Part shown: piece by piece, positions 12,958-39,861 of the stretch | Layout of the letters: every line of letters starts with the position of its first letter | Numbering within the stretch: the stretch's first letter is position 1 | Source: a virus | Virus record (IMG/VR): IMGVR_UViG_3300050821_002847 | Coordinates: 1-64,000 of that record | Direction: 5' to 3' (one strand) | DNA length: 64,000 bases | Made by a program: the position numbers and the translations under genes | The notes under the pieces: generated by a model | Told to the model about the DNA's origin: nothing | Database searches by the model: none | The model's input: the letters and a program-made list of their open reading frames with translations, nothing else

Positions 12958-12959
12958 AA

Positions 12960-15121: not shown

Positions 15122-15134
15122 AAGGAGAACTCGG

Positions 15135-15884: not shown

Positions 15885-15899
15885 TCTAAGGGAGCCTTG

Positions 15900-16265: not shown

Positions 16266-16274
16266 GAGACTCCG

Positions 16275-16682: not shown

Positions 16683-16703
16683 AAATTAAAGGAGAATAGT
16701 TCC

Positions 16704-16886
16704 ATGCCTATTCAGGGTCTAAAGCACAGCAAGTCCGCCGGTCACTACGCCGGACACGAAGTCGAGCCTGCGCAGCCGCATGGCCCGAAGCAGGGCGGCA
16801 GGCACCCCATCTCGCACAGCCACTCCGCGCACCCCAAGCACGCCCGCAAGCTGACCGGACGCAAGGTCTTCGGCGGCAGGAAGTAG
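16704..16886 (+). CDS. His/Lys-rich small protein, 60 aa
   Basis: ATG 16704 follows AAAGGAGAATAG. The product has many His, Lys and Gly residues (HPISHSHSAHPKHARKLTGR), is strongly basic and lacks hydrophobic core. It may bind DNA or metal in the virion head. Its stop is in frame with the next gene's start, 24 bases away. Confidence 0.55.
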   Translation: MPIQGLKHSKSAGHYAGHEVEPAQPHGPKQGGRHPISHSHSAHPKHARKLTGRKVFGGRK

Positions 16887-16910
16887 CGGCAGCGGGGCTG
16901 GAGGTGCGTC

Positions 16911-17912
16911 ATCGGGCTGGCAGATTTACAAGCAGAGCTACGGGGCTCCGTCCCTAAGATTCCCTTCAGTTACACAAAAACCCTTATAAACAGGGCCTAT
17001 CGTGAGATTCGTGAGGCCCACCTGTGGTCGTTCAACCTCTTTGAATCCGCTTGGATAACTCCGCCTCTAGTGAACGCTGGCACCGTTGCCTTCACGCAGG
17101 GCCTAAACACAGCGACCTTCGATGCCACGGCCATCGCTGCTATCAACACCGCATCTACTCCCTATTCGCTCGTGACCCAGCGCCAGTTCCGGCCTAACAC
17201 TCCCGGCGGCGTCGCGGCGATCTACAACATTATCGCCTACGATCAGGTCGCTGGCATCGCCACGATGGACCGCCCCATCGCCGACCCCGGCGGCACTGGG
17301 CTCTCCTATCAAATCTACCAACTCTATTACACGCCGCCAATGCTCGACTTTCTGACATGGCTAGACATCCGCAATATGCAAATGTTCCTCTCGCTGAACC
17401 TGCTCCGCAACCGCGCTTGGATTGACGAGCACGACCCGCAGCGATCCTTCTACCTGTTCCCTACGCACGCGGTCCCCTATGGCATCGACCTGCGCGGCGC
17501 TGGCACCGTGAATGCCTCCGCTACTCTTGGCTTCCCGATGTTTGAACTCTGGGGCCAACCCACCAATAATTTCGTCTACACTTGCTATGGCATCCGCCGG
17601 GGCGTGGACCTCGTGAATCCCACCGACACCTTGCCAATCCAACTCGCCGACGATCTCGTGCTTACAAAAGCCCGCGAATACGCCTACGAATGGGCCGAGT
17701 CCAACAAGGACATGTCTCCGCGCTCTAGTGGCCCTGATTTCCGCTTCCTGATGGGGAAGGCCCACGACGATTATAATAAACTCTTGACGAAGTACCGTAA
17801 GCAGGATAAAGAACTCGTAGATAATTACTGTCATATTCACCGGCTGGACATCGGCGCAATTGGCCACTGGTATTATTCGACGATCAGTTCAACAGCAGGG
17901 ACAGGCGGTTAG
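16911..17912 (+). CDS. neck/adaptor-type virion protein, possible ATC start
   Basis: The coding pattern extends well upstream of the first GTG (17070): residues encoded from 16911 (ADLQAELRGSVPKIPFSYTK, then INRAYREIREAHLWSF) are typical of the helical N-terminus of phage neck/tail-adaptor proteins. No ATG, GTG or TTG exists between the in-frame stop at 16884 and this segment. GGAGG at 16900-16904 is six bases before ATC 16911, so an ATC start is the best explanation; CTG 16917 is the alternative. The rest is beta-rich with Tyr/Trp. At 333 aa it probably joins portal to tail. Confidence 0.6.
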   Translation: MGLADLQAELRGSVPKIPFSYTKTLINRAYREIREAHLWSFNLFESAWITPPLVNAGTVAFTQGLNTATFDATAIAAINTASTPYSLVTQRQFRPNTPGGVAAIYNIIAYDQVAGIATMDRPIADPGGTGLSYQIYQLYYTPPMLDFLTWLDIRNMQMFLSLNLLRNRAWIDEHDPQRSFYLFPTHAVPYGIDLRGAGTVNASATLGFPMFELWGQPTNNFVYTCYGIRRGVDLVNPTDTLPIQLADDLVLTKAREYAYEWAESNKDMSPRSSGPDFRFLMGKAHDDYNKLLTKYRKQDKELVDNYCHIHRLDIGAIGHWYYSTISSTAGTGG

Positions 17913-17914
17913 CG

Positions 17915-19186
17915 ATGGCTGAACACGTACTAGTGCCCTACAAGCTGGACCCCCACGAGTCCCCCGGAGACCTGCTCCAGCAGCCGATGTCCCGGCAGCA
18001 ATCCGCTGATATCCTCGCGGCGTTCCCGAATGGTCCGCAGCGCCAAGACTCTCTCGAATGGACCAACTATGCCTCCGCACTGTACGTCTGCGACCGGGAC
18101 GCCGAAGCCCTCGTCGCTGCCGAGCACGCGGTCTCGCTGAATCGCGGCTCGACCGAACTCTTCAACTTAGGTCTCATCCTCGAAGGCTATGGTCGCTTCG
18201 TGGACGCGCTGGTGCTCTACGCCGAGGCCAATCGTACCGACCCAGGGAGCATCTTCGCGGGCGGGGCCTACAGCGACGCGCTCATCCGCCTCGGACGCTG
18301 GGACGTGGGCTGGCCTTACTACGCCCTCTACCACTCCCACTTGACCACTCGCCAAGTCAGCCGCTTGGCCGAAGTAGCGAACCGCCGCATCCTTGTGATC
18401 TGCACCGCTGGTGCCGGGGACAACATCTACCACCTGCGCTGGCTCCAGCACTTTCGCAAGGCCGGATGCTATATCACTATGAAAGGCCCCGCGACGCTGC
18501 TCGCGATGCTCGAAGGCCATCCGTGGATCGACGAGCTTCTACCGGAGCCGCACGACAATAAATCCATCCTATGGCATTGCGACGGTCCTCGGTCGCACTC
18601 CAGCAAACTAGGCCAGCGCATCAACCTTAACGATTTCGACTTCCGTATCTCCACTACCTCGCTCGCCGCGTGCGTGGCTCCCGAACTGGACCCCTCCATC
18701 TGGCCGGGGCCATACATCGACGGCAGAGCCTCATGGTGGAAAAGGAGCATCCATAGCAGGCGTCCGCGCGTCGGCCTGTGCTGGAAGGCCGGGGAGAAGC
18801 TCTTCCCCCGTGCGCACCGCACCCTGCATCCGAAGCAAGTTGCCCGCATTGTGGCCACTCTGCCTAGCGTCGAATGGATCAGCCTTGTAGTGGATGAGCC
18901 TTCCCCTACAGGCGTCCAGCCGAACAACATCCGCAACTGGGCTGACACCGCGCGGCTTATATCGTCCTGCGACCTTATCGTCTCGGTGGACACCGGAGTC
19001 GCGCATCTCGCGGGAGCCCTCGGCAAGCCAGTCCACATCGTCCTCCCCGGCGCGTCCCCGTGGCCTTACATGCTCGGCGACGCTTACAAACTCGCCTACC
19101 CCTCGATGCGAGCCTATCGCAACCGAGGCCCGGTCATTGGCTCTGCACTCGACGATCTCATCAGGGAGCTTCGATATGCTTTGTAG
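17915..19186 (+). CDS. TPR-glycosyltransferase (GT9/GT41-like)
   Basis: A 423-aa fusion: tetratricopeptide-like helices at about 45-135 (EALVAAEHAVSLNRGSTELF) and a C-terminal GT-B fold ending in SVDTGVAHLAGALGKPVHI at about 357-375, the acceptor/nucleotide-sugar signature of heptosyltransferase-like and TPR-glycosyltransferases. Such enzymes move a sugar from a nucleotide donor, often onto protein. It opens a nine-gene sugar/methyl cassette placed between neck and fibre genes, so virion protein is a likely acceptor. Substrate specificity cannot be read from sequence. Confidence 0.75.
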   Translation: MAEHVLVPYKLDPHESPGDLLQQPMSRQQSADILAAFPNGPQRQDSLEWTNYASALYVCDRDAEALVAAEHAVSLNRGSTELFNLGLILEGYGRFVDALVLYAEANRTDPGSIFAGGAYSDALIRLGRWDVGWPYYALYHSHLTTRQVSRLAEVANRRILVICTAGAGDNIYHLRWLQHFRKAGCYITMKGPATLLAMLEGHPWIDELLPEPHDNKSILWHCDGPRSHSSKLGQRINLNDFDFRISTTSLAACVAPELDPSIWPGPYIDGRASWWKRSIHSRRPRVGLCWKAGEKLFPRAHRTLHPKQVARIVATLPSVEWISLVVDEPSPTGVQPNNIRNWADTARLISSCDLIVSVDTGVAHLAGALGKPVHIVLPGASPWPYMLGDAYKLAYPSMRAYRNRGPVIGSALDDLIRELRYAL

Positions 19187-20345
19187 ATCATGCGGCGCGG
19201 CAACCACTCCCGTTCTATCCCTTGGCGAGATGCCCTTGGCCAACCATCTTCTCTCGCACCCAATGCACCCCTGTGCCCGCTACCCTCTGGACCTAGAGTT
19301 CTGCCCGGAGTGTAAACTAGGCCAACTCGCAGAGATAGTCCAGCCGCCGCTGATGTTCACTGACTACCCTTACTATTCCAGCGTATCCGCGCCGACGGTC
19401 ACAGCCGCGAATGACTTGGCCCTAGATGTATGCTCGCAACTCGGCACTGGCAAGCTCGACAAGGAATCTCTCGTCGTAGAAGTAGGCTCGAACGACGGCT
19501 ACCTGCTCTCCGCCTACAAGAACTACGGCATTCCCGTGCTGGGTATCGACCCCGCTTCCGGCCCCGCGAACGCCGCTGCTCTCAAAGGCATCCCCACAGT
19601 GCAAGACTTCTTCGGCCTGAGCCTCGCCAAGCGCATGCCCAAGGCTGACGTGATCCACGCACACAACGTTCTCGCGCACGTCCCGGACCTTAACGATTTC
19701 GTGGCAGGGATCGCGGAGATGCTCAAGCCGGATGGGATGGTCGTCGTGGAGGCCCCCTATCTCGGCGACCTCGTGGACAAGTGTGCCTTCGACACGATCT
19801 ACGCGGAACATGATTACTATTTCTCGGTGACGGCGGCGATGCAGCTATTTCTACGTCATGGAATGCTGATGAACTCAGCGAAGAGAATCCCCGCGCATGG
19901 CGGCTCATTGCGCCTATGTTTCTCAAAGAAACTCGTAACCGGCATGACGTGGCCCAAGGAGTCCTTCGACTTCTCCGAGATGGCCGGTCGTATGAAGTCT
20001 ATCGCCTGCGGCCTCCAGGACTTCCTCGTGTACGCTCACAGCCGTCACAAGCGCGTGTGGGGCTTTGGTGCCGCCGCGAAGGCAACCGTCATGCTGAACT
20101 ACTGTGGCATCGACACCACGCTCATCGAATCCATCGCCGACGGCACTCCCGCAAAGATCGGCAAATATATCCCCGGCACGGGAATCCGCATCGCGCATCC
20201 GCAGGACTGGCTTGAGGCGCAGCCGGACTACACCTGTATCTTCGCGTGGAATTATGCCAATGAGATTTGCCATCGCTACGCCAAGGACTATCGCGGGATA
20301 ATGTTTACACCATATATTACCCCGAGCGTGGAGGTAAGCGCGTGA
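19176..20345 (+). CDS. sugar C-methyltransferase (TylCIII/NovU family-like)
   Basis: A 389-aa SAM enzyme. ATG 19176 has AGGGAGC upstream and overlaps the glycosyltransferase end. The N-terminal zinc site uses Cys3, Cys6, Cys43 and Cys46; SAM motif I is VEVGSNDGYL at 101-110. The C-terminal domain includes VWGFGAAAKATVMLNYCGID. This three-part layout (zinc N-domain, Rossmann, C-terminal putative binding domain) is that of C-methyltransferases that make branched deoxysugars on nucleotide-linked ketosugars. In this phage it would modify the sugar donor used by neighbouring glycosyltransferases. Confidence 0.8.
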   Translation: MLCRSCGAATTPVLSLGEMPLANHLLSHPMHPCARYPLDLEFCPECKLGQLAEIVQPPLMFTDYPYYSSVSAPTVTAANDLALDVCSQLGTGKLDKESLVVEVGSNDGYLLSAYKNYGIPVLGIDPASGPANAAALKGIPTVQDFFGLSLAKRMPKADVIHAHNVLAHVPDLNDFVAGIAEMLKPDGMVVVEAPYLGDLVDKCAFDTIYAEHDYYFSVTAAMQLFLRHGMLMNSAKRIPAHGGSLRLCFSKKLVTGMTWPKESFDFSEMAGRMKSIACGLQDFLVYAHSRHKRVWGFGAAAKATVMLNYCGIDTTLIESIADGTPAKIGKYIPGTGIRIAHPQDWLEAQPDYTCIFAWNYANEICHRYAKDYRGIMFTPYITPSVEVSA

Positions 20346-21265
20346 ACGTCGGCGGTCCACTGGCTGGAGTCGTATTCGTCTCAACTGGCGGCTACAAAAT
20401 GATGCGTGCGCTGCGCTCGTTCCGGCGTGCAGAACCTTCGTTGCGGGTGCATATCGCCCTCGCTACTTCTAGCCGCGTGTGGGACCAGAACAACGCTGCC
20501 GTACCATTCACTGAATTTGAGAAGCAGCCGGGAGTCCTTACACGCCAGATCAGCAGCAACGGTTATATCAACGGGTGCTTCAACGAGGCCGTCAAGTGGA
20601 TGCGTGAGTACGACTATACGCACGTGTGCTGTCTACACGACGACACGGTGTTCTCGCCACTGCCCGACCCCGAACCATTGTCACAGTGGCTGGAATACGC
20701 GGCAGACTGCGTAGGCGTAGACAGTTCTGGCTGGACGCTTAGCTCTATGGAAGCTCTCGTTCATCCGCCCCCTGAGAACTCCGGCTATTGGCACCGCCCG
20801 CCCGAGTTCTGGGACTCGCGCGATCTTGAATCCCCCGAAGTATGGCAGCGCATGTGCCCCGGCGGTCGCTCGGCGATGTACTTTGGCTCGGAAGGCTCAG
20901 CCGATGGCGTCTCGCTCGGCGACTGGTTCGTCAAATACTTCGCTACCGAGCACATCGCGACAATCTCGCGCCTCGGCCCTTGCGGATTCATTATCCCCGT
21001 CGCAACGTGGGAAGCCGTCGGAGGCTTCGGCGAGACCGAGGGCATCTTCTACGACATGGAGTACCCGGTCCTGTGCGCGCTGCGCGGACTCCCGCCCGTG
21101 AAGGTAATCCCCAATACGCCGTTCCTCCATATTCATTGCCAGTCCACTATCGGCGACCCGGCGGTAGGCATCTGGGAGCACGACTTTGAGTCGTTCAAGT
21201 CAAAGTACGGCGGCAGAGATCCCGGAACAGTCCTGCGCGAATTGCCAAGCGGGGGAGGATATTGA
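20342..21265 (+). CDS. glycosyltransferase, GT2-like (GT-A fold)
   Basis: GTG 20342 lies seven bases after GGAGG and overlaps the methyltransferase stop. The 307-aa protein has a Rossmann-like start, a metal-binding-type acidic motif CLHDDTVF (about 97-104) and a later region GFGETEGIFYDMEYPV resembling the acceptor-side acidic motif of family 2 enzymes. It probably transfers a sugar from a nucleotide donor. Frames open upstream are shadow of the previous gene. Confidence 0.65.
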   Translation: MNVGGPLAGVVFVSTGGYKMMRALRSFRRAEPSLRVHIALATSSRVWDQNNAAVPFTEFEKQPGVLTRQISSNGYINGCFNEAVKWMREYDYTHVCCLHDDTVFSPLPDPEPLSQWLEYAADCVGVDSSGWTLSSMEALVHPPPENSGYWHRPPEFWDSRDLESPEVWQRMCPGGRSAMYFGSEGSADGVSLGDWFVKYFATEHIATISRLGPCGFIIPVATWEAVGGFGETEGIFYDMEYPVLCALRGLPPVKVIPNTPFLHIHCQSTIGDPAVGIWEHDFESFKSKYGGRDPGTVLRELPSGGGY

Positions 21266-21870
21266 TGGCGTTCCCGGACGTGTCGGAGGTCCTGCGCGGC
21301 GATGCGCTGCTCGCGGAGGACTTGGTCTGGACGAAGCAGATCGGCGAGAAGGAGCGGCTTGCGGAGGACCTATGCAACGCTCCATTTCGCACCGTTTTAG
21401 AGATCGGCTGTGGGACTGGCCTCTACGCAAGGATTCTACAGGACGCCTTCTCGATAGTCCCTATAGTTTACTTAGGCATAGACAGCAACCCGGAAGCGTT
21501 GGATATGGCTAAGGCTCGGAACCCTAGTACGCGATTCCTCCAGCGTGATTTTAGAGACTACGACTCGAAGATGACGTGGGACCTCGTCTGCGCTCACGCC
21601 TTCCTGAAGCACTTCAGCGCCGACGAATGGCCGCCACTGTTCGCTAAGTTCCTCTCCCTTGGACGCATCGCACAGTTCGACATGCAGACCGCTGCCGAGA
21701 CTTTCAACAATGGCTCCCTGACCTTCGGCAACAACCTGTGGGTCGCGGAGTCGCTGTTCTCTGCATCGCTCGCCGAGGCAGGCCATGTAATCAAATCCTC
21801 GCGCATCGCATGGCAGCAGGACGACCGCAAGGCGACCATCTACTTGACGGAGAAGTGCGATGCTGCCTGA
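21265..21870 (+). CDS. SAM-dependent methyltransferase
   Basis: The TGATG overlap and GGAGG place the start at ATG 21265 rather than the TTG before it. SAM motif I VLEIGCGTGLYARIL starts at about residue 44, followed by YLGIDSNPEALDMAKA (motif II) and CAHAFLKHF in the motif-IV position. It is a class I Rossmann enzyme of about 201 aa. Within the sugar cassette it most likely O- or N-methylates a sugar. Confidence 0.75.
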   Translation: MAFPDVSEVLRGDALLAEDLVWTKQIGEKERLAEDLCNAPFRTVLEIGCGTGLYARILQDAFSIVPIVYLGIDSNPEALDMAKARNPSTRFLQRDFRDYDSKMTWDLVCAHAFLKHFSADEWPPLFAKFLSLGRIAQFDMQTAAETFNNGSLTFGNNLWVAESLFSASLAEAGHVIKSSRIAWQQDDRKATIYLTEKCDAA

Positions 21871-22402
21871 GTTCATGCAAGCACCCTGTGGTCAGCGCGA
21901 GCCCGAGTTTATGGCGTGGGCCGCGCTCGTGCGCGCCTACGACTGCCAGTCCTACGTCGAACTGGGCACTGGCCATGCGGACTACATAACCAAGCTAGGC
22001 GTCCCATCCGTGATTGCCGTGGACATCAACAATGACGAAGGCCGTGTGAACCACAACGGCGTCCGCTACGTTCGCGGCGACTCCCACGACCCGCGCACCC
22101 TCGACCGCGTGCTGCATCTGCTCGGCGATCTCCCCGACGTCGTCTTCATCGACGCCGACCACGATGGCGACGCGCCGCGCCTTGACTTCGACCTCTGGTA
22201 TCCGGTCGCGCAGAAGCTTGTCGGCTTCCACGACATTCTCATCCCGAATATCGAGCTTAATATCTGGCCGCAGATCGCGCTCGCGCACCCGTCGGCGAAG
22301 ATCATCGCCTGCGACCGGGCGTCCGCGCTCGCGTGGCAAGGCCCCGGCGCGCCGCAGGACGGCGTGCTCTCGGGCGGTGGGATTGGAGTCGTGTTTAAGT
22401 GA
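21860..22402 (+). CDS. class I methyltransferase-like protein
   Basis: A 180-aa Rossmann protein with YVELGTGHADYI at 32-43, AVDIN after strand 2, and VVFIDADHDGDAPRLDFDLW, the pattern of methyltransferase_24/cephalosporin-hydroxylase-like families. It overlaps its neighbours by 11 and 4 bases. It probably uses SAM; the substrate is unknown, with a sugar favoured by context. Confidence 0.65.
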   Translation: MLPEFMQAPCGQREPEFMAWAALVRAYDCQSYVELGTGHADYITKLGVPSVIAVDINNDEGRVNHNGVRYVRGDSHDPRTLDRVLHLLGDLPDVVFIDADHDGDAPRLDFDLWYPVAQKLVGFHDILIPNIELNIWPQIALAHPSAKIIACDRASALAWQGPGAPQDGVLSGGGIGVVFK

Positions 22403-22812
22403 GACTGACTGAGCTAGAGCCACGGTGTATTCGTTATGAAACTAGGGTAGAGAAGCGTACGTTCTGCTTAGGAGATGTGGCTACATGGAAGGACGGAGAC
22501 CCGACTGAGGAGCGCGTTGTCCCGGTACGTTATGAGATTAGGGTGGACTCCTTCAGCGAGGCGCAAGGAATTGTGTTCTTATGTCCACTGTGCTTTGCTA
22601 AGAATAGCGGATCAGTAGGCACGCACTGGTGCTCTGTGTCATTTGCGGAGCGAGGTGTTAGTTCTGACGAAGGGACCCACAACTCTGAGGGTAGTCCTGT
22701 TCGTTGGAACGTCAGTGGAGATAGCTTCGACAATTTGTCTACGACTCCTTCGATACTGCTTCAGGGTGGCTGTAACTGGCATGGCTATATAACCAACGGC
22801 GAGGTCCAATGA
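22399..22812 (+). CDS. DUF6527-like protein
   Basis: The GTGA overlap sets the start at 22399. The C-terminus PSILLQGGCNWHGYITNGEV and the middle VFLCPLCFAKNSG (with His/Cys following) match a small phage protein family of unknown function that I recall as DUF6527; the Cys/His pairs look metal-binding. It interrupts the methyltransferase run, and its codon use is visibly more AT-rich, so it may be a later insertion rather than part of the sugar pathway. Confidence 0.65.
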   Translation: MRLTELEPRCIRYETRVEKRTFCLGDVATWKDGDPTEERVVPVRYEIRVDSFSEAQGIVFLCPLCFAKNSGSVGTHWCSVSFAERGVSSDEGTHNSEGSPVRWNVSGDSFDNLSTTPSILLQGGCNWHGYITNGEVQ

Positions 22813-23357
22813 CGACGACCATCCCCTACACCGACCTCTGCTCGCTCGCCGACAAGCACGGCACCGACAAGCGCCCCGAGCCGAAGGGCCACGGCTATAC
22901 CCACTATTATCACTCGCTGTTCGGCGAGCGCCGCGACAAGGTGCGAAAGGTCCTAGAAATCGGCATCGACGTGGGCGCGTCGCTGCGGATGTGGGAGGAG
23001 TATTTCCCCAACGCTAAAATCTACGCGCTGGACGCCGACCCTGCGCGATTCATCAATAAAGGACGAGTCCGATCCTTCCAGTGCGATCAGGGGAATATAG
23101 AGTCTATCCGAGGAGTTAAATTTTGGCTAGATAGGAACTTCGACTTCATCATCGACGACGGCTCGCATGTCTCCGGGCATCAAGTTGCCTCTGCGTTAGA
23201 ACTCGTGCCGCTATTGGCTCCTGGTGGAATCTACGTTATCGAAGACGTTCCGCACCCAGCCGAAGTGACCTCGCAACTCCCTTTCCCCTGCGAGGTCCAC
23301 GAGTTCGACATTCGCCGCGACCCCTACAGCCGACTGGTGGTCATCCATGGCCGCTAG
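22809..23357 (+). CDS. SAM O-methyltransferase, macrocin/mycinamicin type
   Basis: A 182-aa protein beginning LADKHGTDKRPEPKGHGYTH and continuing KVLEIGIDVGASLRMWEEYF at about 47-66, then FDFIIDDGSHVSGHQ. This sequence of motifs is characteristic of sugar O-methyltransferases related to MycE and TylE, which methylate hydroxyls of deoxysugars on macrolides. It is shorter than the stand-alone antibiotic enzymes and corresponds to their catalytic domain. It strongly supports sugar methylation as the job of the cassette. Confidence 0.75.
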   Translation: MTTTIPYTDLCSLADKHGTDKRPEPKGHGYTHYYHSLFGERRDKVRKVLEIGIDVGASLRMWEEYFPNAKIYALDADPARFINKGRVRSFQCDQGNIESIRGVKFWLDRNFDFIIDDGSHVSGHQVASALELVPLLAPGGIYVIEDVPHPAEVTSQLPFPCEVHEFDIRRDPYSRLVVIHGR

Positions 23358-24009
23358 TCCTGCCATCGTCCGTCCCATTGACACCGCGAGCGACGCCGCC
23401 GCCTCGATCAATCGCATCTATCGAACCCTCGCCTACGACCATCGGCCTTACCTTGACCCTCACGACGAAGCCTTCGCAGCCAAGAACACCGACGACTACA
23501 GGAGACGTTATGCCTGTTTCAAATACGCAGTTGCTAAAGTCCTACGCCCGCAAACCATCATCGAGATCGGCGTTGGCTCTGGCGTTTCGGCCCTCGCATT
23601 TCTACACGCTCGCCCTAATCTTCGCTATGTTGGCCTCGACATCGGCGAGTGGGACACGCGGCTCGGCAAGCCGTTCCTGCAAACCATGAGTGCGAAGCTC
23701 TCGGCGCTACGGTTCGATTACCAGATCATCGAAGGCGACAGCCAGCAGGTGAATAAACTGCCGGAGTGCGACCTCGTGCACATCGACGGCAACCATTCCT
23801 CCGAGGCCGTCTACCACGATATGTTGTCCGCGTGGGCCAGCGGTGCGAAATGGATTCTCTGCGACGATGCCTGCGACCCGGCGGTGGGGGCGGGGATATT
23901 TCGTGCCTTACAAGTCGGCCTCGACCGAGGGAGCGTGGACTGGGCGTACTTCCCTGATACGTGGGCGGGAGATATTCTGATTCGCACGGACCATAGGAGA
24001 GAAGAGTGA
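23347..24009 (+). CDS. class I SAM methyltransferase
   Basis: A 220-aa Rossmann protein with IIEIGVGSGVSALAF at 71-85, YVGLDIGEWD after strand 2 and DLVHIDGNHSSEAVYHDM in the motif-IV area, typical of methyltransferase_24-like enzymes. It overlaps the previous gene by 11 bases and the next by 4. It is the fourth or fifth methyltransferase-like gene of the cassette. Confidence 0.72.
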   Translation: MAASPAIVRPIDTASDAAASINRIYRTLAYDHRPYLDPHDEAFAAKNTDDYRRRYACFKYAVAKVLRPQTIIEIGVGSGVSALAFLHARPNLRYVGLDIGEWDTRLGKPFLQTMSAKLSALRFDYQIIEGDSQQVNKLPECDLVHIDGNHSSEAVYHDMLSAWASGAKWILCDDACDPAVGAGIFRALQVGLDRGSVDWAYFPDTWAGDILIRTDHRREE

Positions 24010-24995
24010 AATTCCTACTCCCACAAGGAATCGGCGATAGTGTCTGGGCGATTCACAAGGTGCAGTCTATCGCGGCTAAGCTAGGCGATGGACGCATCGA
24101 CATTCTTCTATCTGGTGGGACACATCAGATCGAAACCCGTGCACTAGACTTCGTGCGCCGATTCTCCTTCGTAGACTCAGCAGAGATGCGCCCTTATTCA
24201 GTACATCCTAAAGTCCCCGTGTCTCCTGAGGGCCAATATAATTACATCCAGGATGGCATGTACGACTTCCCCGACAACACCGGCTGGCGCGTCGAGCGTT
24301 GCTGCGCGCTAATGCCTAACGGACCACTCGAACGTGGTATCCGCCTTGAAGATTGGCTACCGCAATATGAGATCAACTGGGACATCTGGAAGGACTTTCG
24401 CATCTCCTCCGAGGAGACTCGCTTCGCCATCGACCTCCACGCGGCCATTGGTGACTATGCCGTGTTCTATCTCGGCCCGCTCACTGGCAACACCATCGAC
24501 GGCCACAATCGCGGCCCGCTATGGACTCCGCAGGACTGGCTAGCACTCGGACGCCACGTCCACCAGCACTGCGGCCTTAAAATCGTGGTCGTTGGTGCAC
24601 CCTACGACGCTTCCTATTTCGACACGATGATCGGCCCGCAACTGAATGGCGACACGCCCTTCTGGATCAACCTAATTGGCAAGACCTCCATCGGCCAACT
24701 CTACGCCGTGACCTCCCGAGCGCGATTCGTGCTCTCCTATCAATCCGGCGTGGGCATCGTCTCGACCTATCTCGGCACACCCACAGGCATCTTCTGGCGT
24801 CCACGCGGCGACTCCATCAGCCCGTCGCGCTACCTGTCTTTCGAGGAGCGTATGGCCTCGGCGTGGGTGCCCCCGAGCGTCCTCCAGTCCGGGAGACATC
24901 TGCCGCTGATATACGGTAGGCATGGACTAGCTTATATTAAGAAGGAGATCGACGCGCACGGGTGGAATAGAAAGAGAGCATGGGGCGACATATGA
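24006..24995 (+). CDS. GT9-like glycosyltransferase
   Basis: A 329-aa GT-B protein. The N-terminus FLLPQGIGDSVWAIHKV has the G-x-GD loop of heptosyltransferase-type enzymes. Near 235-260, FVLSYQSGVGIVSTYLGTPTG occupies the place of the nucleotide-sugar binding motif. It closes the cassette. Together with the TPR enzyme and the GT2-like enzyme it gives three candidate sugar transfer steps. Confidence 0.65.
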   Translation: MKFLLPQGIGDSVWAIHKVQSIAAKLGDGRIDILLSGGTHQIETRALDFVRRFSFVDSAEMRPYSVHPKVPVSPEGQYNYIQDGMYDFPDNTGWRVERCCALMPNGPLERGIRLEDWLPQYEINWDIWKDFRISSEETRFAIDLHAAIGDYAVFYLGPLTGNTIDGHNRGPLWTPQDWLALGRHVHQHCGLKIVVVGAPYDASYFDTMIGPQLNGDTPFWINLIGKTSIGQLYAVTSRARFVLSYQSGVGIVSTYLGTPTGIFWRPRGDSISPSRYLSFEERMASAWVPPSVLQSGRHLPLIYGRHGLAYIKKEIDAHGWNRKRAWGDI

Positions 24996-26518
24996 GACGG
25001 CTGCTCTGTATAGCACTATGGGTGCTCGTCGCGCTCGTAGTCCCATCGGTCGCGATGGCGAACCAATCCGTGACTGGCTGGTGCGAGACTGGAGCCATCG
25101 CCGTAGTCACCTCTGGCTTGCAGAGCAGCAATCAAGTCCAAGGCTCCTTCCCACAGTGCCAAGTGGAGGTCTTGGTCCATGGCGGAGGCATCGCGACCAT
25201 CTTCGCAGATAACCTCAACACGCCTCTCGCAAATCCGTTTCTCGCAAACACTATCGGGCAATTTTCATTCTATGGAAATAATGGGCGCTACGATATCGTC
25301 CTATCAGGGGGCGGGAATGGGGGACTGCCTTCCCCCGTGACCATCTCCGACGTTCTTCTGAACGACCCCTTCCAAGAGATTAGTTCTCTCTGCACCGTGG
25401 CCTTCACGCCCACGCCGACCTTTACGGCGAATCTGTGCTCGATATTCTCAATGACGCTCACTGGCAACGTAACCTCCAGCGGTATCTCCGGCGCACTCAC
25501 TGGACAGGTTATCTCGTTCAATATCACAAATTGCATGGGGAGCCCCTGTACGCTTGCATGGCCGTCGAACTTCTTTAATCCTCCATTGCTGACACCTATC
25601 GCGGGAGCCTCCGAACAATTCACCTTCGCGCTGCTCGCCGATGGCAACTGGCACTCTATGAGCGTCGGCGAGTCCATGGTCTTCGACACAGGAGTCAACG
25701 GGAACGTCCTGCGCATCAATGGCGTCACGATAAACGCCATCACGGGCACTGGCGCGAACGTACTGGCGACCTCTCCGACCATTATCACCGCGATTCTGAC
25801 TACTCCAGCCATCAGCAATCCAACGATCACCGGGACCGTCGCGGGAGGGGCGACTTACACCGCGCCGACACTCACCAGCCCGACGATCACCGGCACCGTG
25901 GCAGGCGGCGCGAGCTACACCGCGCCCACGCTCACAGGCACAATCGGAGGAGGGGCTACCTACACTAGCATAACGCTGCCGAATCCGACCTCTACGGGCA
26001 CCGACGTGGGCTCCGAGACTCTCCAGAACAAGGGCCTGATGAGCGCCGCGAACGGGAACAATGTCACGCTCATCTGCCCATTTCAAGGCTCTACTGGAGC
26101 GATCACAGGCAATAGCATGGACCAGTTGCTATGGTCATGCGGCATCCCTGCCAACGTGCTTGGCCCAGGTAAGGGCATTCGTCTACGGGGCAACGTACAA
26201 CATACTACCGGATCAGCCGCGCCTAATTTCAAGCTGTCTATTGGCGGAGTCACCTTCTCGGGTCTTGGTGGCACTGGCTCCACCAATGGCACTCGTTCCA
26301 CCCTGATATTTGAATTTTTCAACAATGTTGGAGTACAGAACGCGCAGACCGCTGGAGGCTACGGCTTGGACTCTTCTGGAACGTCCACCGCTGGCGTGCT
26401 GGGCATGCCTACAACGAACTTCGCCACGGGCGGAACGATCACAATCGGAATCACTTTCAACGCCGCTAACACCAATGCAGTCACCGGGGACAGCTTTTGG
26501 GGAGAGTTAATTCAATAG
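24992..26518 (+). CDS. fibre-like protein with Sec signal peptide
   Basis: A 508-aa protein. ATG 24992 (ATGA overlap) opens MRRLLCIALWVLVALVVPSV, a Sec signal with a likely AMA cleavage at 23; ATG 24980 would add four residues. After residue 270 come two 20-aa repeats with TGTVAGG and YTAPTLT cores, and a shorter third copy, then a beta-rich C-terminal domain (about 350-508). The Gly/Thr/Ser composition fits a fibre or adhesin. A cleavable export signal is odd for a virion protein assembled in the cytoplasm. Confidence 0.6.
   Translation: MRRLLCIALWVLVALVVPSVAMANQSVTGWCETGAIAVVTSGLQSSNQVQGSFPQCQVEVLVHGGGIATIFADNLNTPLANPFLANTIGQFSFYGNNGRYDIVLSGGGNGGLPSPVTISDVLLNDPFQEISSLCTVAFTPTPTFTANLCSIFSMTLTGNVTSSGISGALTGQVISFNITNCMGSPCTLAWPSNFFNPPLLTPIAGASEQFTFALLADGNWHSMSVGESMVFDTGVNGNVLRINGVTINAITGTGANVLATSPTIITAILTTPAISNPTITGTVAGGATYTAPTLTSPTITGTVAGGASYTAPTLTGTIGGGATYTSITLPNPTSTGTDVGSETLQNKGLMSAANGNNVTLICPFQGSTGAITGNSMDQLLWSCGIPANVLGPGKGIRLRGNVQHTTGSAAPNFKLSIGGVTFSGLGGTGSTNGTRSTLIFEFFNNVGVQNAQTAGGYGLDSSGTSTAGVLGMPTTNFATGGTITIGITFNAANTNAVTGDSFWGELIQ
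25820..25939 (+). repeat. two 60-bp coding repeats
   Basis: Two adjacent 60-bp units (25820-25879 and 25880-25939) encode near-identical 20-aa blocks beginning PTITGTVAGG; a degenerate third follows. They lie inside the fibre-like gene and probably form a beta-helical or shaft segment that can change length by recombination. Confidence 0.7.
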
Positions 26519-33159: not shown

Positions 33160-33567
33160 ATGCCCGGACCATCGACACCACTGCTCGGCCTGACAGTCCC
33201 CACCGTCGGCGGGGATATAAACGCTTGGGGCGCGGAGCTTAACGCCGACCTCGCTCTGCTCGACGCTCTCGGTGCGGCGCAGGTGCTCATCATCAGTTCC
33301 AACACCATCGTTGCGCTCACCCAACCGGTCACGATCATTCTCGCGATCTCCGGCGGGACCGGCGTGACTATTACACTCCCCAATCCCTCCTTCAATAAAG
33401 GCCGCATGGTGTGGGTAAAAAAGACCGACACCGGCGTGGGGCCGGTAACGCTCGTCCCCGCGTCCGGCCAGATCGAGGGAGGCAATAATTATCAGTTGGT
33501 GAATCGGCTACAGTCGGTAATCCTGGCCCCGGATGCGGTCAACTGGTGGGCCTTCGCGGGACAATGA
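33160..33567 (+). CDS. tail fibre N-terminal-like protein, 135 aa
   Basis: The start GLTVPTVGGDINAWGAELNA, followed by LDALGAAQ, matches the common N-terminal motif of many phage tail fibres (TVPTVG...WG...N). The rest is a beta domain ending NWWAFAGQ. It is short for a full fibre and may be the attachment part of a fibre whose distal portion is encoded separately by the following large genes. The ATGA overlap couples it to the next gene. Confidence 0.65.
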   Translation: MPGPSTPLLGLTVPTVGGDINAWGAELNADLALLDALGAAQVLIISSNTIVALTQPVTIILAISGGTGVTITLPNPSFNKGRMVWVKKTDTGVGPVTLVPASGQIEGGNNYQLVNRLQSVILAPDAVNWWAFAGQ

Positions 33568-36500
33568 ACATGCGACGATCATGGCTACTGCTACTCGTCA
33601 TCGCACTGCTAGCGGCTATTCCACTGTCCGCGCAGCAGCGACAATTCTCGACCATTATCTCCGTGCCAGAGCCCTTACCAAATTGCACCCCCGGCGGACT
33701 CGCTGCGGAGATGCCGGTGCTGTGGGATGTCACCTCCGCTGGGTTCAAGTTCTGCTCAGGGACGAACACATGGAGCCCTTTCCCTGCCAGCAGCGGTGGC
33801 GGCGGGGCGACGATTCAGACCAACGGGACCAGCAATGGATTGCAGAGTATCCTGAACTTTCAGAACGTTGGCGTGTTCTCATGGAGCAATCCCTCTTCCG
33901 GCAATGAGCAGCTTAACTTCTCCTCGCAGAGCGCCAATACTTTCATCGCCGCGCCGAACGGCTCCGCTGGAGTGCCCACTGCGCGAGCCATCGTGGCAGC
34001 GGACATCCCCGCCGGGACTTCCTGTGGGGCCAACCAATTCACCAACGGGATTCTCGCGGCTTTGGCTCCGTCCTGCACCCAGGTCAATTTCGTCAACTTG
34101 GCTGGAACAATCGCTCTCGGACAGACTCCCCTGACCACCAACGGCGATCTCCTATCGGTCAGCACCGGAGCACTCGCACGGGTAGGTTCAGCGGGAGGGC
34201 AGGACTTCCTGCTCCAAGGCGCGAACGCCGCCCTCCCCGTGTGGCTTGCCGTGAACAACTGTGGCAGCGCGACCCAAGCCCTGAGCTATTCGACTACCTC
34301 GCATGCCTTCGGGTGTCAGACGATCAGCGCGGGCACGGGGACGATCAACAACGCCTCACAGTTCAGCGCGGCGTACTATTCCTCCGCTGGGACTACCAAT
34401 GTTATCAGTGGCATCGCAGGGCCAACCACGCCGAGCATTCCCTTTATCTTTTGCTCCACGCCATCGGGAGGCGTAGCGACCGCTCCGGCATGGTGTATCC
34501 CGGGCGTGCCACTCAATGAGCAGACCTCCGCTAGCTACCCAGTCGTCGCCGGGGACCGCGAGAACCTGGATACGATGAACTTCGCCACTGCGGTCGCGGT
34601 ATCGCTGCCGCAGGCCGGGAGCGCGGGGTTCACCAACAATTTCAACTTCGCCCTGACGAATATCGGCGCGGGACTTGTGACCGTAACCCCCGGTGCGTCG
34701 AGCACTATCAACGGGAACGCCACGCAGATCGTGCCCAAGGGATGGTTCAGCTACATCTATTCGGACTATACGAACTACTTCGCGCTGACCGCACCGGACA
34801 TCTCGGACTTTCCGAATTGCGCGAATCCCTTGTCGTTTACGGCGGCGACGGGCGTGTTCAATTGCCTCGCCGGGACCAGCGGAGGGATACCGTATTTCTC
34901 GGCGGCGAACACGTGGGCGTCCTCGGGGGTGCTGACGGCGAATCTCCCGGTGATTGGCGGCGGTGCTGGCGCATCCCCCTCAGTCGGGACCGTGACGGGC
35001 AACACGACCGAGTTTGCCACGTGGACCGGCGCAACGACAGTCTCACGCTGCATCGACACCGATGCCAGCGGCAACCTACATATTACAGCGGCAGATTGCG
35101 GAGTCGGGACCACGGTGCCTATCTCGGGACTATTGCCTGCGACCGGGACAAACACCATCGACAACGCCGCATTGGAGCAGATATGGGAGTGGGAGCCTAC
35201 CTCTGGGACTCCGGGACTATTACTCACCGAGTCCGCCGCAAGCACAGGGGCAGGTCCAATCTTCGGCGTGACAACAATTGCGGGCTCACTGGCTAAGGCA
35301 ATGGTGATCCAAGGCACGGCACCGGCATCAGTAGCCTCCGCTCCTATAGCTCAGCCTGATTTAGCTGATTTCATTGCAGCCAAGGGCCAAGATGTGACTG
35401 GGATGAACACCGTCGGAGGTAATGGACAGGGCTTTAGTTGGACGGTAGGTGCGGCGGGCGCTTCAACAGGGACCGCGAACAGTGCCAGCGTTGGCCCTTG
35501 GAACGTGAATTTCGGTGGTATCCCCAACACCACCAAGACGCAATTCTGGGGCCAAGCTAACTTCAACTATGTGTTCCCACAGCCTTGGTCTTCGCAGGTA
35601 TTCTCTTACACTGGCAATACGAACTCCGGCGTGGGCGCGTCATCCGGGGCTGGCTTGTTTCTGAGCAACACGTCAGCGGCAAATATTGGAAGCGTTCCGA
35701 ACAATGGTCCGCCTCTATTTGGAACGTGGTCGCATTTGGACATCGGTGGTGTGGATACAAATGTCTCTACTCTGCTGAGCTTGGGACAGACCTGCACCTT
35801 GCCGACCAGCAACTCCTTCCCAGCTATCACTGGGGATGTTGGCGGGGCCGGAGGCTTTATCTGCAATATTTTGATGACACGAGGAATTAAGCCGGGAGTA
35901 GGCTACGCCTTCTGCTTGCAACCCGGCGGTGTTTGCATGATTGCTGATGTCGCGTCGAATCCCACCCTCGGGCAAGGCGGGAGGTTTGTAGGAACAGGTT
36001 CTAATGTGGCCCTTGGCGGCAACGTAAACTCTGGGCAGAATGGCGGCGTTATCATCCAAGCTAATAGCCCTGTAGGTTCCCAAGCTGATGTTGTGATTCC
36101 AAATCGCTCAAATGCTGGTGCCCTAAACATATTTGGTTTTACGAGCATCAATGCCGCAGGTGGCAATGGAATCCTCGACTGCGGAACAGTCTATGGCAAT
36201 ACATCGAGTGGTGGTTACTATACAGACCCGAGCAACACGCAGGGAGGCACGTGTATTTTCCGCGCAGGTAATGGCACCGGGACCGCGACCAGCGGCGACC
36301 TTCAGTTCCAGACTGCGCCTGGAGGTTCGTCTGGGGCTGGGCAAGACACGATGGTTACGCGAGGCGGCTGGAATGGGACGGGTGGGTATCCGGCTGCTGG
36401 AGGACTGATCGACGTAAGCCTTCCGGGGCAAATCTCTCTTACTGCTCAAACTGCGGCTATTAGCACTGCAACACTATGCTCTGGCACCACGGAAGGCCAG

Positions 36501-36839
36501 TGCAATCATGTTGGACAGTACCTGCTCAACTTCTCGTTCGTTGAGGACGGCACCGCCTGTGGCACTCCAGGAACGGGCGGAGTGACCTTCCTCCTGACTT
36601 GGACTGATGACAACGGCACGGTGCACTCGGCGGTGTCACTTGGGATGGATGATGCCTCGGCCATCAACACCGTATCACAAACCTTCCATTTTCAGACTTC
36701 TCTCGGAGCCGCATGGGGCAGTGGACAGTTCGTATTCTCATCCAATGGCTCAGTAGTGCAATATGCTACAGGATACACCGCGTGTGGTGTCGGTACGGGT
36801 TCGTACCGGCTTAAGGCTACAGTGACAAGGTTGCAATAA
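33564..36839 (+). CDS. large fibre-like protein with Sec signal peptide
   Basis: 1091 aa from ATG 33564 (ATGA overlap; ATG 33570 is possible). Residues 4-23 are a Sec signal (RRSWLLLLVIALLAAIPLSA) with cleavage before QQ. A fibre-like segment TTNGDLLSVSTGALARVG lies at about 193-210 and a beta-sandwich module ends the protein (TWTDDNGTVHSAVSL, near 1020). Gly/Thr/Ser/Asn-rich beta structure throughout suggests a spike or adhesin. The export signal is unexpected in a virion operon. Confidence 0.6.
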   Translation: MNMRRSWLLLLVIALLAAIPLSAQQRQFSTIISVPEPLPNCTPGGLAAEMPVLWDVTSAGFKFCSGTNTWSPFPASSGGGGATIQTNGTSNGLQSILNFQNVGVFSWSNPSSGNEQLNFSSQSANTFIAAPNGSAGVPTARAIVAADIPAGTSCGANQFTNGILAALAPSCTQVNFVNLAGTIALGQTPLTTNGDLLSVSTGALARVGSAGGQDFLLQGANAALPVWLAVNNCGSATQALSYSTTSHAFGCQTISAGTGTINNASQFSAAYYSSAGTTNVISGIAGPTTPSIPFIFCSTPSGGVATAPAWCIPGVPLNEQTSASYPVVAGDRENLDTMNFATAVAVSLPQAGSAGFTNNFNFALTNIGAGLVTVTPGASSTINGNATQIVPKGWFSYIYSDYTNYFALTAPDISDFPNCANPLSFTAATGVFNCLAGTSGGIPYFSAANTWASSGVLTANLPVIGGGAGASPSVGTVTGNTTEFATWTGATTVSRCIDTDASGNLHITAADCGVGTTVPISGLLPATGTNTIDNAALEQIWEWEPTSGTPGLLLTESAASTGAGPIFGVTTIAGSLAKAMVIQGTAPASVASAPIAQPDLADFIAAKGQDVTGMNTVGGNGQGFSWTVGAAGASTGTANSASVGPWNVNFGGIPNTTKTQFWGQANFNYVFPQPWSSQVFSYTGNTNSGVGASSGAGLFLSNTSAANIGSVPNNGPPLFGTWSHLDIGGVDTNVSTLLSLGQTCTLPTSNSFPAITGDVGGAGGFICNILMTRGIKPGVGYAFCLQPGGVCMIADVASNPTLGQGGRFVGTGSNVALGGNVNSGQNGGVIIQANSPVGSQADVVIPNRSNAGALNIFGFTSINAAGGNGILDCGTVYGNTSSGGYYTDPSNTQGGTCIFRAGNGTGTATSGDLQFQTAPGGSSGAGQDTMVTRGGWNGTGGYPAAGGLIDVSLPGQISLTAQTAAISTATLCSGTTEGQCNHVGQYLLNFSFVEDGTACGTPGTGGVTFLLTWTDDNGTVHSAVSLGMDDASAINTVSQTFHFQTSLGAAWGSGQFVFSSNGSVVQYATGYTACGVGTGSYRLKATVTRLQ

Positions 36840-36840: not shown

Positions 36841-39800
36841 ATGAGGCGGCTGTTCTATATATTCTCATTGCTCCTTCTACCTTGTCTTCCGGCACGTGCG
36901 CAGTTCGATGACTTTGAAGGACTAATTTCCGTCCCATGCTCCGCGAATCCGCATACGCTCGCCTTCACGACCGGAAGCCAGAGCACGACGACGCAGACTC
37001 TCACGATCACCGGAGCCAGCCCAAGCGCAACTTGGCAGGCCAATCATGCTTACTCCTTCGGATCGTGGATTCTAGACCCTGCTAAGCACTGGCAGAAGGT
37101 CATCATTGCCGGAACGAGCGGTGGCTCTCAGCCTACCTTTAACGACTCCGGTAATGCCACCACTGATGGCACCGCTGAAGAGATGGACTGGGGACCAGCG
37201 ATTGCTGTGAATGAGCCCATGCGAATTACAGGCACTGGTACGGCGATGGATTGGGCCTTCACAAACAACACCGATCTCAAGGCAGGCGAGAGCATCGTCG
37301 CGACGGTAAATCTAGGGACTGAGGTTGTCACACTCACTGCCGCAGCCTCGCATACCGTGGCGGGGCCTGTCTCTGGAACCATCGTCTCTGGGCGAGAATA
37401 TATATCGCAGGCCGTCTCCACGCCCTTCGGCACCGGCCCGCAGCAATGCACCACCGAGGGCCATTGGTTCTTCGAACAGGGCATTGGTGCGATGTGCGCT
37501 AACCAGAACGCTCAGTGCAATGGCATCACGGGATTCTTGGCCAAATATGGCACTACCTGCGCCGGTGCGGCGGTCGAACAGACGCTGATCCAGTCGATGA
37601 ACTTCAACTCGATTGGAGAGCTTTCCGAGACGGCATACCTGCACGACGCTGGAGGGTTGTGTGCTACCAATGTCCATCTGCCCAGCAGTCAAACCTTGAA
37701 CGGGCCGGGGGCCTTATATCCAACCGCCAATCTGGGCGGCTATATATCTCAGCCAGTCAAGGACCTCCGCGATTTGACACCTCCCACTTACAATACTCAA
37801 GGCTCGGCGGAGCATGGCGTCGTTGACGCTTTGGACCCGCGTTTAGCAACCGCTGTCTTGCAATTCGTCCAGCATTTCAACAACAGTTATATCCAGATGT
37901 ACTCGTCGCCATGGATGGGACGGCATAATAGCGATGACACCGACTATATTGGATTTTCAAACGCAGGCTGGAACTTCCATCCATCGGTGTCCCAATCAAC
38001 CGACGCAGACAGCGCATATATCGTTCTGGTCTCCAACCCCCTAGCCAGTGTGACAAAGAACGTAAACTTTTATGGAGGTTCGCTGAATCTCCCATTCCTC
38101 TATGCCGACCCGGTGAATTACTTCAAAGACCCAATGGTCTCGGTACCGACGACTTGCGCGGACTACAACGATAGCACGCATGGCATCTGCTCCTTAGATA
38201 GTTACCTCGCGCAGATCAATGGCAACTCACTGACGGCTTTGAACATACGCTATGGCTCCAGCTACTCGACCCTCCTTTCGAGTGGCACCGAATACGGCTA
38301 CAGTAGCCCGGTCAGTTCTTGGTACACCAATGGCGGAGCACCCACAGTCATCTGCACCGGCACAGGCTCAAGCGCGAGTTGCACTGGAACGCTTAATATC
38401 GGAAGTATGGGTATATCCAGACGCTCCGTTGAGATTCTCTACACACCCAGCGGTGGAAGCCCAGTCATCGTCGGGGGAGACTTAGCCAATGGGCTTCTCT
38501 ACACTGCCGGACGCTGGAAGGGCAATATTGGCGTCTGTACGGGGCTGATCGTCACGGATTCCAACGGAGACTTAGAGCAGCTTACCAAGACGGGATGCCC
38601 TGCAGGTACGACGACCAACTCCGATCCCCCTTGGCCCTCCGCTGCGGCTTGTCCTGGAACGATCACAACCGATAGCAATAGCCTGACATGGAAGTGCTTA
38701 GGTCCAGGGCTGACCACGACCAGCGGGGCGACGACCTCGACCGTCACATATGCCACCGGAGCCGTAACTCTAAATGCAAATCAGACGATTCCCAACGGGG
38801 CGGTTTATTCGGCAGCCTACGTAACCGACGGATGGGGACTGGGCACTGGGCTATTAGATGAAGCTGGACAGAACTCTTGGGCCAGCACCACTGGAGCCGT
38901 CTGTCCTGTGGTGCCTCCTGCTTATCAGGCGAGCCGTGCTTACACTATCACCGACGAGATCACCGATCCTACGAGTGGGTCGTGGCAAGTAGCAATGTCT
39001 AATTTCACCTCCGCCGGAGGAGTGACCTTCTCGAATGTCGCCAGCACGCTGACAAACGACGGCGCAACTACAGGCGCATGGATGAGCCTTGGCAAGGGTG
39101 TCTGTCAGACCGGAGGAGATTTCGGTGCTCCCACGATGAATACTAATCTAGGGACGGACATTGAGGCGTGGATTGCGCAAATGGCCGCGCAGTGGATGCT
39201 CTCGACGACCGGACAGTACCGGCAGATTTTCCCCGACTTCCCTGATTTTGGCCCTGACAATACAGGCACGAGGTGGACTCCGCCACGGCAAGGGGTGCTC
39301 CAAGCAGCTAATCTATATCTTGACGGCATATTCCATCAGACTTCGATGTTCGACCCGGCGCAGGAATACCAATCGGCTATCAAGTACCAGTTCGTAACAC
39401 GATATTTCCAAGGGCCAATCGTGGCGTTTCAGACCATTCGCTCCACGCAGAGTCCGAGCGGGAATTGCTCGGTTGGCGGGACGGATTGCTTCCCGACACA
39501 GCAGGCACGTGGAGAGCATTGGTATATATCCGCGTCGAACATGCTGAATAAGCTGAGCTTCAACGGAACACAGCAGAACGCGGGAAATGTTTGGTGGGAA
39601 TCTCACACCGGGGACAGTCCATCGACGAACTGGGGACTAATTACGGCGAAGGATAATCTCTTCAATGGAGTCGAGGATGTGACAGCCACGGTCACCTGCT
39701 CGGTGCCGAGACATTTATTTAATTGTGGAGGTGAGTCCAGTGCGTCGTGGAATGGGTCGAGCCTGTTCTCGGATGTGCTAAATCCGACCAGTGGCAACGC

Positions 39801-39861
39801 TCTGTGGTTCAGTGCTCCGATTACGCCCACATCTGGGACGCCAATAGGACGGCTTCCATAG
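36841..39861 (+). CDS. secreted glycoside-hydrolase-like protein, 1006 aa
   Basis: Sec signal RRLFYIFSLLLLPCLPARA (2-20), then QFDDFEG. Between about 230 and 370, FLAKYGTTCAGAAVEQTLIQ, SMNFNSIGELSE and later SPWMGRHNSDDTDYIGFS recall (beta/alpha)8 glycosidases of agarase/beta-galactosidase-like type, in which a helix carrying a mature WGFNTIG-like motif precedes a loop with acidic residues. Beta domains follow. It could degrade a surface or soil polysaccharide for access to the host. The enzymatic call is tentative. Confidence 0.4.
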   Translation: MRRLFYIFSLLLLPCLPARAQFDDFEGLISVPCSANPHTLAFTTGSQSTTTQTLTITGASPSATWQANHAYSFGSWILDPAKHWQKVIIAGTSGGSQPTFNDSGNATTDGTAEEMDWGPAIAVNEPMRITGTGTAMDWAFTNNTDLKAGESIVATVNLGTEVVTLTAAASHTVAGPVSGTIVSGREYISQAVSTPFGTGPQQCTTEGHWFFEQGIGAMCANQNAQCNGITGFLAKYGTTCAGAAVEQTLIQSMNFNSIGELSETAYLHDAGGLCATNVHLPSSQTLNGPGALYPTANLGGYISQPVKDLRDLTPPTYNTQGSAEHGVVDALDPRLATAVLQFVQHFNNSYIQMYSSPWMGRHNSDDTDYIGFSNAGWNFHPSVSQSTDADSAYIVLVSNPLASVTKNVNFYGGSLNLPFLYADPVNYFKDPMVSVPTTCADYNDSTHGICSLDSYLAQINGNSLTALNIRYGSSYSTLLSSGTEYGYSSPVSSWYTNGGAPTVICTGTGSSASCTGTLNIGSMGISRRSVEILYTPSGGSPVIVGGDLANGLLYTAGRWKGNIGVCTGLIVTDSNGDLEQLTKTGCPAGTTTNSDPPWPSAAACPGTITTDSNSLTWKCLGPGLTTTSGATTSTVTYATGAVTLNANQTIPNGAVYSAAYVTDGWGLGTGLLDEAGQNSWASTTGAVCPVVPPAYQASRAYTITDEITDPTSGSWQVAMSNFTSAGGVTFSNVASTLTNDGATTGAWMSLGKGVCQTGGDFGAPTMNTNLGTDIEAWIAQMAAQWMLSTTGQYRQIFPDFPDFGPDNTGTRWTPPRQGVLQAANLYLDGIFHQTSMFDPAQEYQSAIKYQFVTRYFQGPIVAFQTIRSTQSPSGNCSVGGTDCFPTQQARGEHWYISASNMLNKLSFNGTQQNAGNVWWESHTGDSPSTNWGLITAKDNLFNGVEDVTATVTCSVPRHLFNCGGESSASWNGSSLFSDVLNPTSGNALWFSAPITPTSGTPIGRLP

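Follow-up and report, generated by a model that had tools for sequence, protein, structure and literature searches.

A modular island of putative sugar-transfer and sugar-methylation genes beside a candidate exported fibre gene in a soil podovirus

The IMG/VR virus record IMGVR_UViG_3300050821_002847 is 64,114 bases long, and its first 64,000 nucleotides (the window), nearly all of the record, were analysed here. Nine genes of this DNA, g1 to g9, form a modular island that is cut exactly into the junction between a neck/tail gene (p17) and a gene for a fibre-like protein (fib) in the late structural operon. The nine appear to make up one sugar-transfer and sugar-methylation cassette, a reading supported by profile and fold matches, by the sugar genes found in the islands of related phages, by a fixed place in the late operon and by purifying selection. 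We give an even chance to a fuller reading, in which the island is a protein-glycosylation module, the adjacent fibre is the likely acceptor and the modified fibre is then exported. A glycan on the virion is likely; that it shields the particle is speculation. The relatives used for comparison were 38 contigs with a shared capsid gene, plus the isolate Tunturi_1, a Tunturiibacter phage.

Results

Organization of the island

A preliminary description of this DNA had reported nine consecutive, overlapping genes at 17915-24995. All nine were recovered there, on the + strand, each sharing 4 or 11 nucleotides (nt) with the next. Corrected starts were assigned to g2 (19176) and g3 (a GTG at 20342). 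The island and its borders are as follows.

16919..17912, + strand: p17, neck/tail gene that bounds the island on the left; its Tunturi_1 homologue, gp11, is annotated 'tail protein'
17915..19186, + strand: g1, tetratricopeptide repeat (TPR) plus GT9-type GT-B glycosyltransferase, by Pfam, AlphaFold2 and Foldseek
19176..20345, + strand: g2, predicted sugar C-methyltransferase of TcaB9/TylCIII type, by Pfam, PDB 3ndi/4rv9 and invariant residues
20342..21265, + strand: g3, GT-A-fold glycosyltransferase with no Pfam family, by AlphaFold2 and Foldseek
21262..21870, + strand: g4, class I methyltransferase (Methyltransf_25), by Pfam
21860..22402, + strand: g5, probable class I methyltransferase, by VELGxG and FIDADH motifs and sub-threshold profiles
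22399..22812, + strand: g6, DUF6527 protein, apparently a recent acquisition, by PF20137 (2e-6) and atypical codons
22809..23357, + strand: g7, putative O-methyltransferase with the MycE/TylE catalytic domain only, by PDB 3ssm and 8ia9; phrog_21658
23347..24009, + strand: g8, Methyltransf_24 O-methyltransferase (40 bits, cut-off 26)
24006..24995, + strand: g9, GT9-like glycosyltransferase, last island gene (25 bits, cut-off 22)
24992..26518, + strand: fib, fibre-like protein with a predicted Sec signal peptide (composition, conservation), right border of the island

The end of g9 overlaps the likely start of fib as ATGA (24992-24995); the ATG at 24992 is a more likely start for fib than 24980. 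On the left, 2 nt separate the end of p17 from the start of g1.

Enzyme assignments

The TPR-glycosyltransferase of the preliminary description is borne out in g1, which matches TPR in Pfam and lies above the Glyco_transf_9 cut-off over a short stretch (29.1 bits, cut-off 22). Its AlphaFold2 model (mean predicted local distance difference test score, pLDDT, 76) fuses a TPR array to a GT-B domain. Foldseek matched this model to bacterial OGT and SPINDLY (the top matches), WaaC/WaaF and TibC, and a profile search of PDB placed the TPRs of OGT first among natural proteins. An N-terminal TPR superhelix followed by a GT-B domain is the architecture of the protein O-glycosyltransferases OGT and SPINDLY (TPR plus GT41), which favours a protein acceptor for the island; g1 differs from them in having only about three TPRs and a catalytic part that is GT9 by sequence, with no GT41 match in the Pfam scan. 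The protein is predicted to work like OGT or TibC, yet belongs to GT9. The GT9-like enzyme described earlier is g9, which lies just above the Glyco_transf_9 cut-off (25.2 bits, cut-off 22) and has homologues, 53-74% identical, in the last place of most islands.

A GT2-like enzyme had also been proposed, and for g3 this held for the fold and failed for the family. The g3 model has a GT-A fold with a Rossmann core: most of its 58 PDB matches at E<=1e-3 are to GT-A glycosyltransferases. The model is reliable in its N-terminal half and of low confidence in its C-terminal half, and no family was found in the Pfam scan. D100-D101 and D238-x-E240, which would supply an acidic metal site, are invariant in 8 phages.

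The TylCIII/NovU-type C-methyltransferase that had been expected was found in g2. Methyltransf_13, Methyltransf_23 and Methyltransf_14 all score above their cut-offs, corresponding to a zinc-binding N-terminal domain, an S-adenosylmethionine domain and a C-terminal domain, and the protein matches TcaB9 over its full length (PDB 3ndi, E=5e-57, residues 2-369 aligned; also 4rv9) as well as D-mycarose 3-C-methyltransferase. Residues C3, C6, C43, C46, H168, Y209, E211 and H212 are invariant in five phages and align with TcaB9; we take the four cysteines to form the zinc domain and H168 and Y209-x-E-H to form the active site. By all tests save that of substrate, g2 passes as a predicted sugar C-methyltransferase of TcaB9 type. 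Like the 3-C-methyltransferases TcaB9, TylCIII and NovU it is full-length, with the zinc domain and the IYxEH motif, but no dTDP (thymidine diphosphate)-deoxysugar pathway lies beside it.

For g7, the proposed likeness to MycE/TylE extends to the catalytic domain (PDB 3ssm and 8ia9; E=2e-19 and 6e-19), including the DDGSH and IED metal/catalytic motifs. It does not extend to the N-terminal auxiliary domain: the 182-residue protein aligns only to chain residues 188-325 of 419. The enzyme is predicted to work like MycE/TylE but lacks a defining domain. Three further class I methyltransferases had been listed. Two of them are assigned by Pfam, g4 to Methyltransf_25 and g8 to Methyltransf_24. The third, g5, is tentatively a class I methyltransferase; it is conserved in 7 phages and has VELGxG and FIDADH motifs, its FtsJ/Methyltransf_24 matches are all sub-threshold and its profile found no match in PDB.

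The DUF6527-like protein stood as described, g6 lying above the cut-off of that family (PF20137, 2e-6). Codon usage is phage-typical for all genes but this one, whose GC content at third codon positions is 0.51 as against 0.68-0.82 in the other eight, and no homologue was found among the relatives examined; g6 looks like a recent acquisition. Distant homologues occur in an uncultured Caudoviricetes record and in the virus Rctr197k. No transmembrane segments or signal peptides were found in g1-g9.

A DNA hypermodification cassette, producing glycosylated and methylated bases, was considered, as phage glycosyltransferases often act on DNA; membership of DNA-modification families was also the outcome that the preliminary description had named as contrary to its reading. 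This candidate was rejected as extremely improbable: a thymidylate synthase/hydroxymethylase-type gene (PF00303) is absent from 11 members of the phage group, no cassette gene falls in a DNA-modification family, g2 and g7 match nucleoside diphosphate (NDP)-sugar and macrolide-sugar methyltransferases, and the genes lie in the structural operon. The earlier assignment to sugar building and methylation gains from this check, from the profile and fold matches, and from the additional sugar genes (epimerase, cupin, GT11, GT15) in the islands of relatives.

An optional and reshuffled island

The interval from p17 to the fibre gene could be read in 29 phages, the window and Tunturi_1 included, and it holds an island in 12 and none in 17. 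On a tree of the major capsid protein (MCP), this distribution requires at least 4 gains or losses. Of 12 island-free phages inspected, nine have an overlap of 1-14 nt between p17 and fib, Tunturi_1 has 8 nt between the two genes (gp11-gp12), and two have gaps near 480 nt. The island thus interrupts a junction of two genes. Among the recognised island genes g1 always comes first, and g9 comes last wherever it is present. Between these, the contents are reshuffled, as the search for the same gene order suggested in the preliminary description revealed:

L002 (nearest relative): g1-g2-g3-g5-g7-g8-HNH-g9; g4 absent
L003: g1, cupin, g2-g3-g4-g5-g7-g8-g9
L016: as L003, minus the cupin
L004: g1-g2-g3-g9
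L009: g1, a g4-like methyltransferase, g8, g9
L024 and L036: g1-g5-g3...g9
L026: g1-g5-g3, endonuclease VII, NDP-sugar epimerase, g9
L011: g1 and one Methyltransf_24
L058: g1 alone
L051 (more distant): g1 gene located between those for capsid and p17, together with GT15, GT11 and a multi-glycosyltransferase protein

Since the site can be filled by g1 alone (L058) or by g1 and one methyltransferase (L011), the target of g1 must always be present.

The island genes lie among structural genes and move together, as is expected of a virion-glycosylation system. Random accumulation of unrelated cargo genes (morons), in which the methyltransferases would have unconnected substrates, would account for the variable content, for the HNH and endonuclease VII genes inside some islands and for the apparently recent arrival of g6. 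We regard it as very unlikely, in that the order and overlaps of g1-g9 are maintained across phages that are 30-80% identical and the recognisable replacements are nearly all sugar or methyl-transfer genes again; the material exchanged at this site is nearly always sugar chemistry. Ratios of nonsynonymous to synonymous substitution (dN/dS) between the window and L002 are 0.08-0.21 for the cassette genes and 0.05-0.14 for structural genes, and this purifying selection indicates that the island genes are kept for a function.

Signal peptides and cysteines of the fibre-like proteins

The fib product begins MRRLLCIALWVLVALVVPSVAMA-NQ. Cleavage is predicted after about residue 23, which would leave eight cysteines in the mature protein. 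A signal-type start is present in 22 of 27 fib homologues, all 22 of which have a cysteine pair just behind it. The five homologues that lack such a start also lack the first cysteine; four of them have 1-3 cysteines in 440 residues, and the fifth, the second copy in L033, is an exception with 12. The two fibre genes of L033 stand in tandem, at 14803-16932 (signal peptide and cysteine pair) and 16936-19092 (neither).

The remaining large fibre-like proteins of the window, which lie outside the island, also have predicted signal peptides and contain about 2% cysteine:

33564..36839, + strand: p34, second signal-peptide, cysteine-rich fibre-like protein
36841..39861, + strand: p37, third signal-peptide, cysteine-rich fibre-like protein

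A basic n-region, a hydrophobic core and a small-x-small site, conserved in homologues, were found in fib, p34 and p37. The other structural proteins of the window have no signal peptide and 0-1.2% cysteine. In Tunturi_1 the fibre-like gp12, gp13, gp14 and gp17 (10371-13943, 13940-15967, 15931-18690 and 19474-23028) likewise combine signal peptides with high cysteine content.

Exported proteins that are fully disulfide-bonded show even numbers of cysteines. Parity was counted in proteins of at least 400 residues, below 50% identity to one another, that pass a strict signal-peptide rule. The mature cysteine count is even in 37 of 40 such distinct proteins across the phage family (P about 1e-8 if even and odd counts were equally likely) and in 22 of 40 control proteins without a signal peptide. 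The pattern was an unplanned observation at the right border of the island, and the rule was fixed after the first examples and before comparison with 74 unrelated phage loci, in which none of 196 open reading frames (ORFs) of at least 400 residues passes it. These features suggest that the fibre-like proteins of this phage family are probably exported via Sec. A literature search within a limited collection found no paper on signal peptides of tail fibres.

Discussion

Proposed mechanism and acceptor

In the mechanism that we propose, the TPR domain of g1 would bind a phage structural protein, to which the first sugar would be attached, and g3 and g9 would extend the chain. A C-methyl group would be placed by g2 on a host-derived NDP-4-keto sugar ahead of transfer, and g7, g8, g4 and probably g5 would O-methylate sugars, capping their hydroxyls. 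The most likely acceptor would be fib, glycosylated in the cytoplasm, then passed through Sec and folded with disulfides in the periplasm; the exported protein would join particles at or after lysis. The advantage to the phage may be altered adsorption or protection of the fibre.

Several observations weigh against this reading. The presence of the island does not raise the serine plus threonine content of fib, and the fibre of the 17 island-free relatives is of the same kind. Fibres richer in these residues, or shorter, had been considered as a mark of island-bearing phages; this idea was dropped, as Ser/Thr content does not differ and lengths overlap. The fold matches of g1 to OGT have low TM-scores, 0.2-0.3, because the TPR and GT-B domains align separately. 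The signal-peptide predictions come from composition rules and from conservation. Lastly, no NDP-sugar 4,6-dehydratase, 4-ketoreductase-type epimerase or nucleoside triphosphate (NTP) transferase gene is found in this phage, so that the activated sugars would be host-made and g2 would need a host sugar. A phage-made donor was sought through epimerase and NTP transferase genes, and among the relatives only L026 has an epimerase.

The acceptor may instead be another virion protein, namely the major capsid protein, the neck protein p17 or a tail protein, as in the mycobacteriophage Che8. Glycans on capsid and tail-tube subunits are a known precedent, according to two accounts (PMC11256854, PMC12619734, citing Freeman et al. 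2023). In the window p17 is the second neighbour of the island, with 2 nt between it and g1. The glycosyltransferases of L051 are found between its genes for MCP and p17, and, among the matches listed, MCP genes rank with the most frequent neighbours of g1 homologues. Still, the island abuts fib in all complete cases save L051, and overlaps it in the window; we consider an acceptor other than the fibre somewhat unlikely.

Late in infection the enzymes could also alter glycans of the host surface, either lipopolysaccharide or capsule, blocking re-adsorption of released phage or excluding other phages. GT9 is the family of lipopolysaccharide heptosyltransferases, enzymes of TylCIII and MycE type are familiar members of cellular sugar pathways, O-antigen conversion by phages is well known, and a GtrB-like family occurs near g1 homologues of other phages among the matches listed. 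The island itself, on the other hand, has no membrane-bound GtrA/GtrB, polyprenyl-dependent enzyme or transmembrane segment, g1 carries a TPR domain, the genes belong to a late structural operon, and the window ORFs scanned include no recognised integrase-type gene. This explanation is unlikely.

Comparison with known systems

To our knowledge, phage-made glycans are known from few systems. As a system, the island is a variant of phage glycosylation cassettes; its exported-fibre part would be new if right, judging from the literature search. In Che8 and related mycobacteriophages, phage glycosyltransferases are likewise thought to decorate structural proteins (PMC11256854, PMC12619734); the acceptor is known there and only proposed here, and no C-methyltransferase is reported in the text consulted. 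In the mycobacterial prophage prophiFSAT01-1 a methyltransferase likewise adjoins a glycosyltransferase.

Modification of adhesins by TibC precedes their export. The soluble TibC glycosylates the signal-peptide-bearing adhesins TibA and AIDA-I (PMC4358343), and the TibC/AAH autotransporter heptosyltransferases resemble the island in having a GT9-related GT-B fold and a soluble enzyme beside an exported signal-peptide adhesin (PMC4358343), to which fib would be the counterpart. TibC, however, is a dodecamer without a TPR domain, whereas g1 has one, and no autotransporter barrel was found in fib by Pfam. The match of g1 to TibC is by fold only (E about 4e-5), the PDB profile search giving no TibC match.

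The short-tailed phages (podoviruses) Tunturi_1 and Tunturi_2, which infect Acidobacteriota (PMC11924767), share the gene order of the window and its signal-peptide, cysteine-rich fibre-like proteins, but have no island, gp11 and gp12 being the direct neighbours described above. It is possible, and we suggest tentatively, that fibre production in this phage family follows the secretory route of the host and that the island-bearing lineages first add methylated sugars via the TPR-GT9 enzyme; the island could then be viewed as an adhesin-glycosylation pathway captured by a virus.

The preliminary description had missed that the cassette is optional and reshuffled and that the adjacent fibre has a predicted signal peptide; the latter alters both the probable route and the probable target. 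Glycan-building modules are naturally exchanged at one junction in this phage family, and its clear empty-site control allows the role of the glycan to be asked directly. If the signal peptides function, the usual view of cytoplasmic folding and assembly of tailed-phage fibres fails for this family, and disulfide-bonded, glycosylated fibres become possible. The nearest isolates, Tunturi_1 and Tunturi_2, make the question of export directly testable.

Homologues elsewhere

Homologues of g1 are common in environmental viruses, with at least 525 confirmed stretches. Among the matches listed, capsid, scaffold, portal and tail genes lie near them (a tally without background control), as do FkbM and Methyltransf_24 methyltransferases and GT2/GT1 enzymes. 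A single-sequence scan of viral contigs with g2 gave no match, and in named phages only distant homologues of g2 were found. In the huge-phage records LR756501/LR756503 a homologue of g2 and one of g7 occur within about 10 kb of each other.

The phage and its genome

Terminase, portal and major capsid genes in the window, together with the fused PolA polymerase described below, identify a tailed phage. By capsid protein Tunturi_1 and Tunturi_2 are its sole named relatives, at 31% identity, and it is a soil podovirus, distant kin of Acidobacteriota viruses. As these sole named relatives infect Acidobacteriota, its host is guessed to be a diderm, probably of that phylum. A search for the host through prophages gave one MCP match only, a 64% identical capsid gene at 2429-3565 of a 4.9-kb contig (L044) binned with a metagenome-assembled genome of a Methanoregulaceae archaeon from SPRUCE peat; it is probably a stray, mis-binned phage contig and was not used.

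Homologous ORFs of p17, about 330 residues long, are present in nearly all relatives. In the window the gene starts upstream of 17070, at about 16913-16919, where homology begins without an ATG, GTG or TTG and a GGAGGT lies 5 nt ahead of an ATC codon and 11 nt ahead of a CTG codon; its 5' end (16913-17070) therefore probably holds either a non-standard start or a sequencing error. A single fused gene on the - strand (49577-52561) encodes a PolA polymerase with an N-terminal uracil-DNA-glycosylase-like domain. The late/lysis region includes a gene for a papain-family cysteine protease at 47339-48148.

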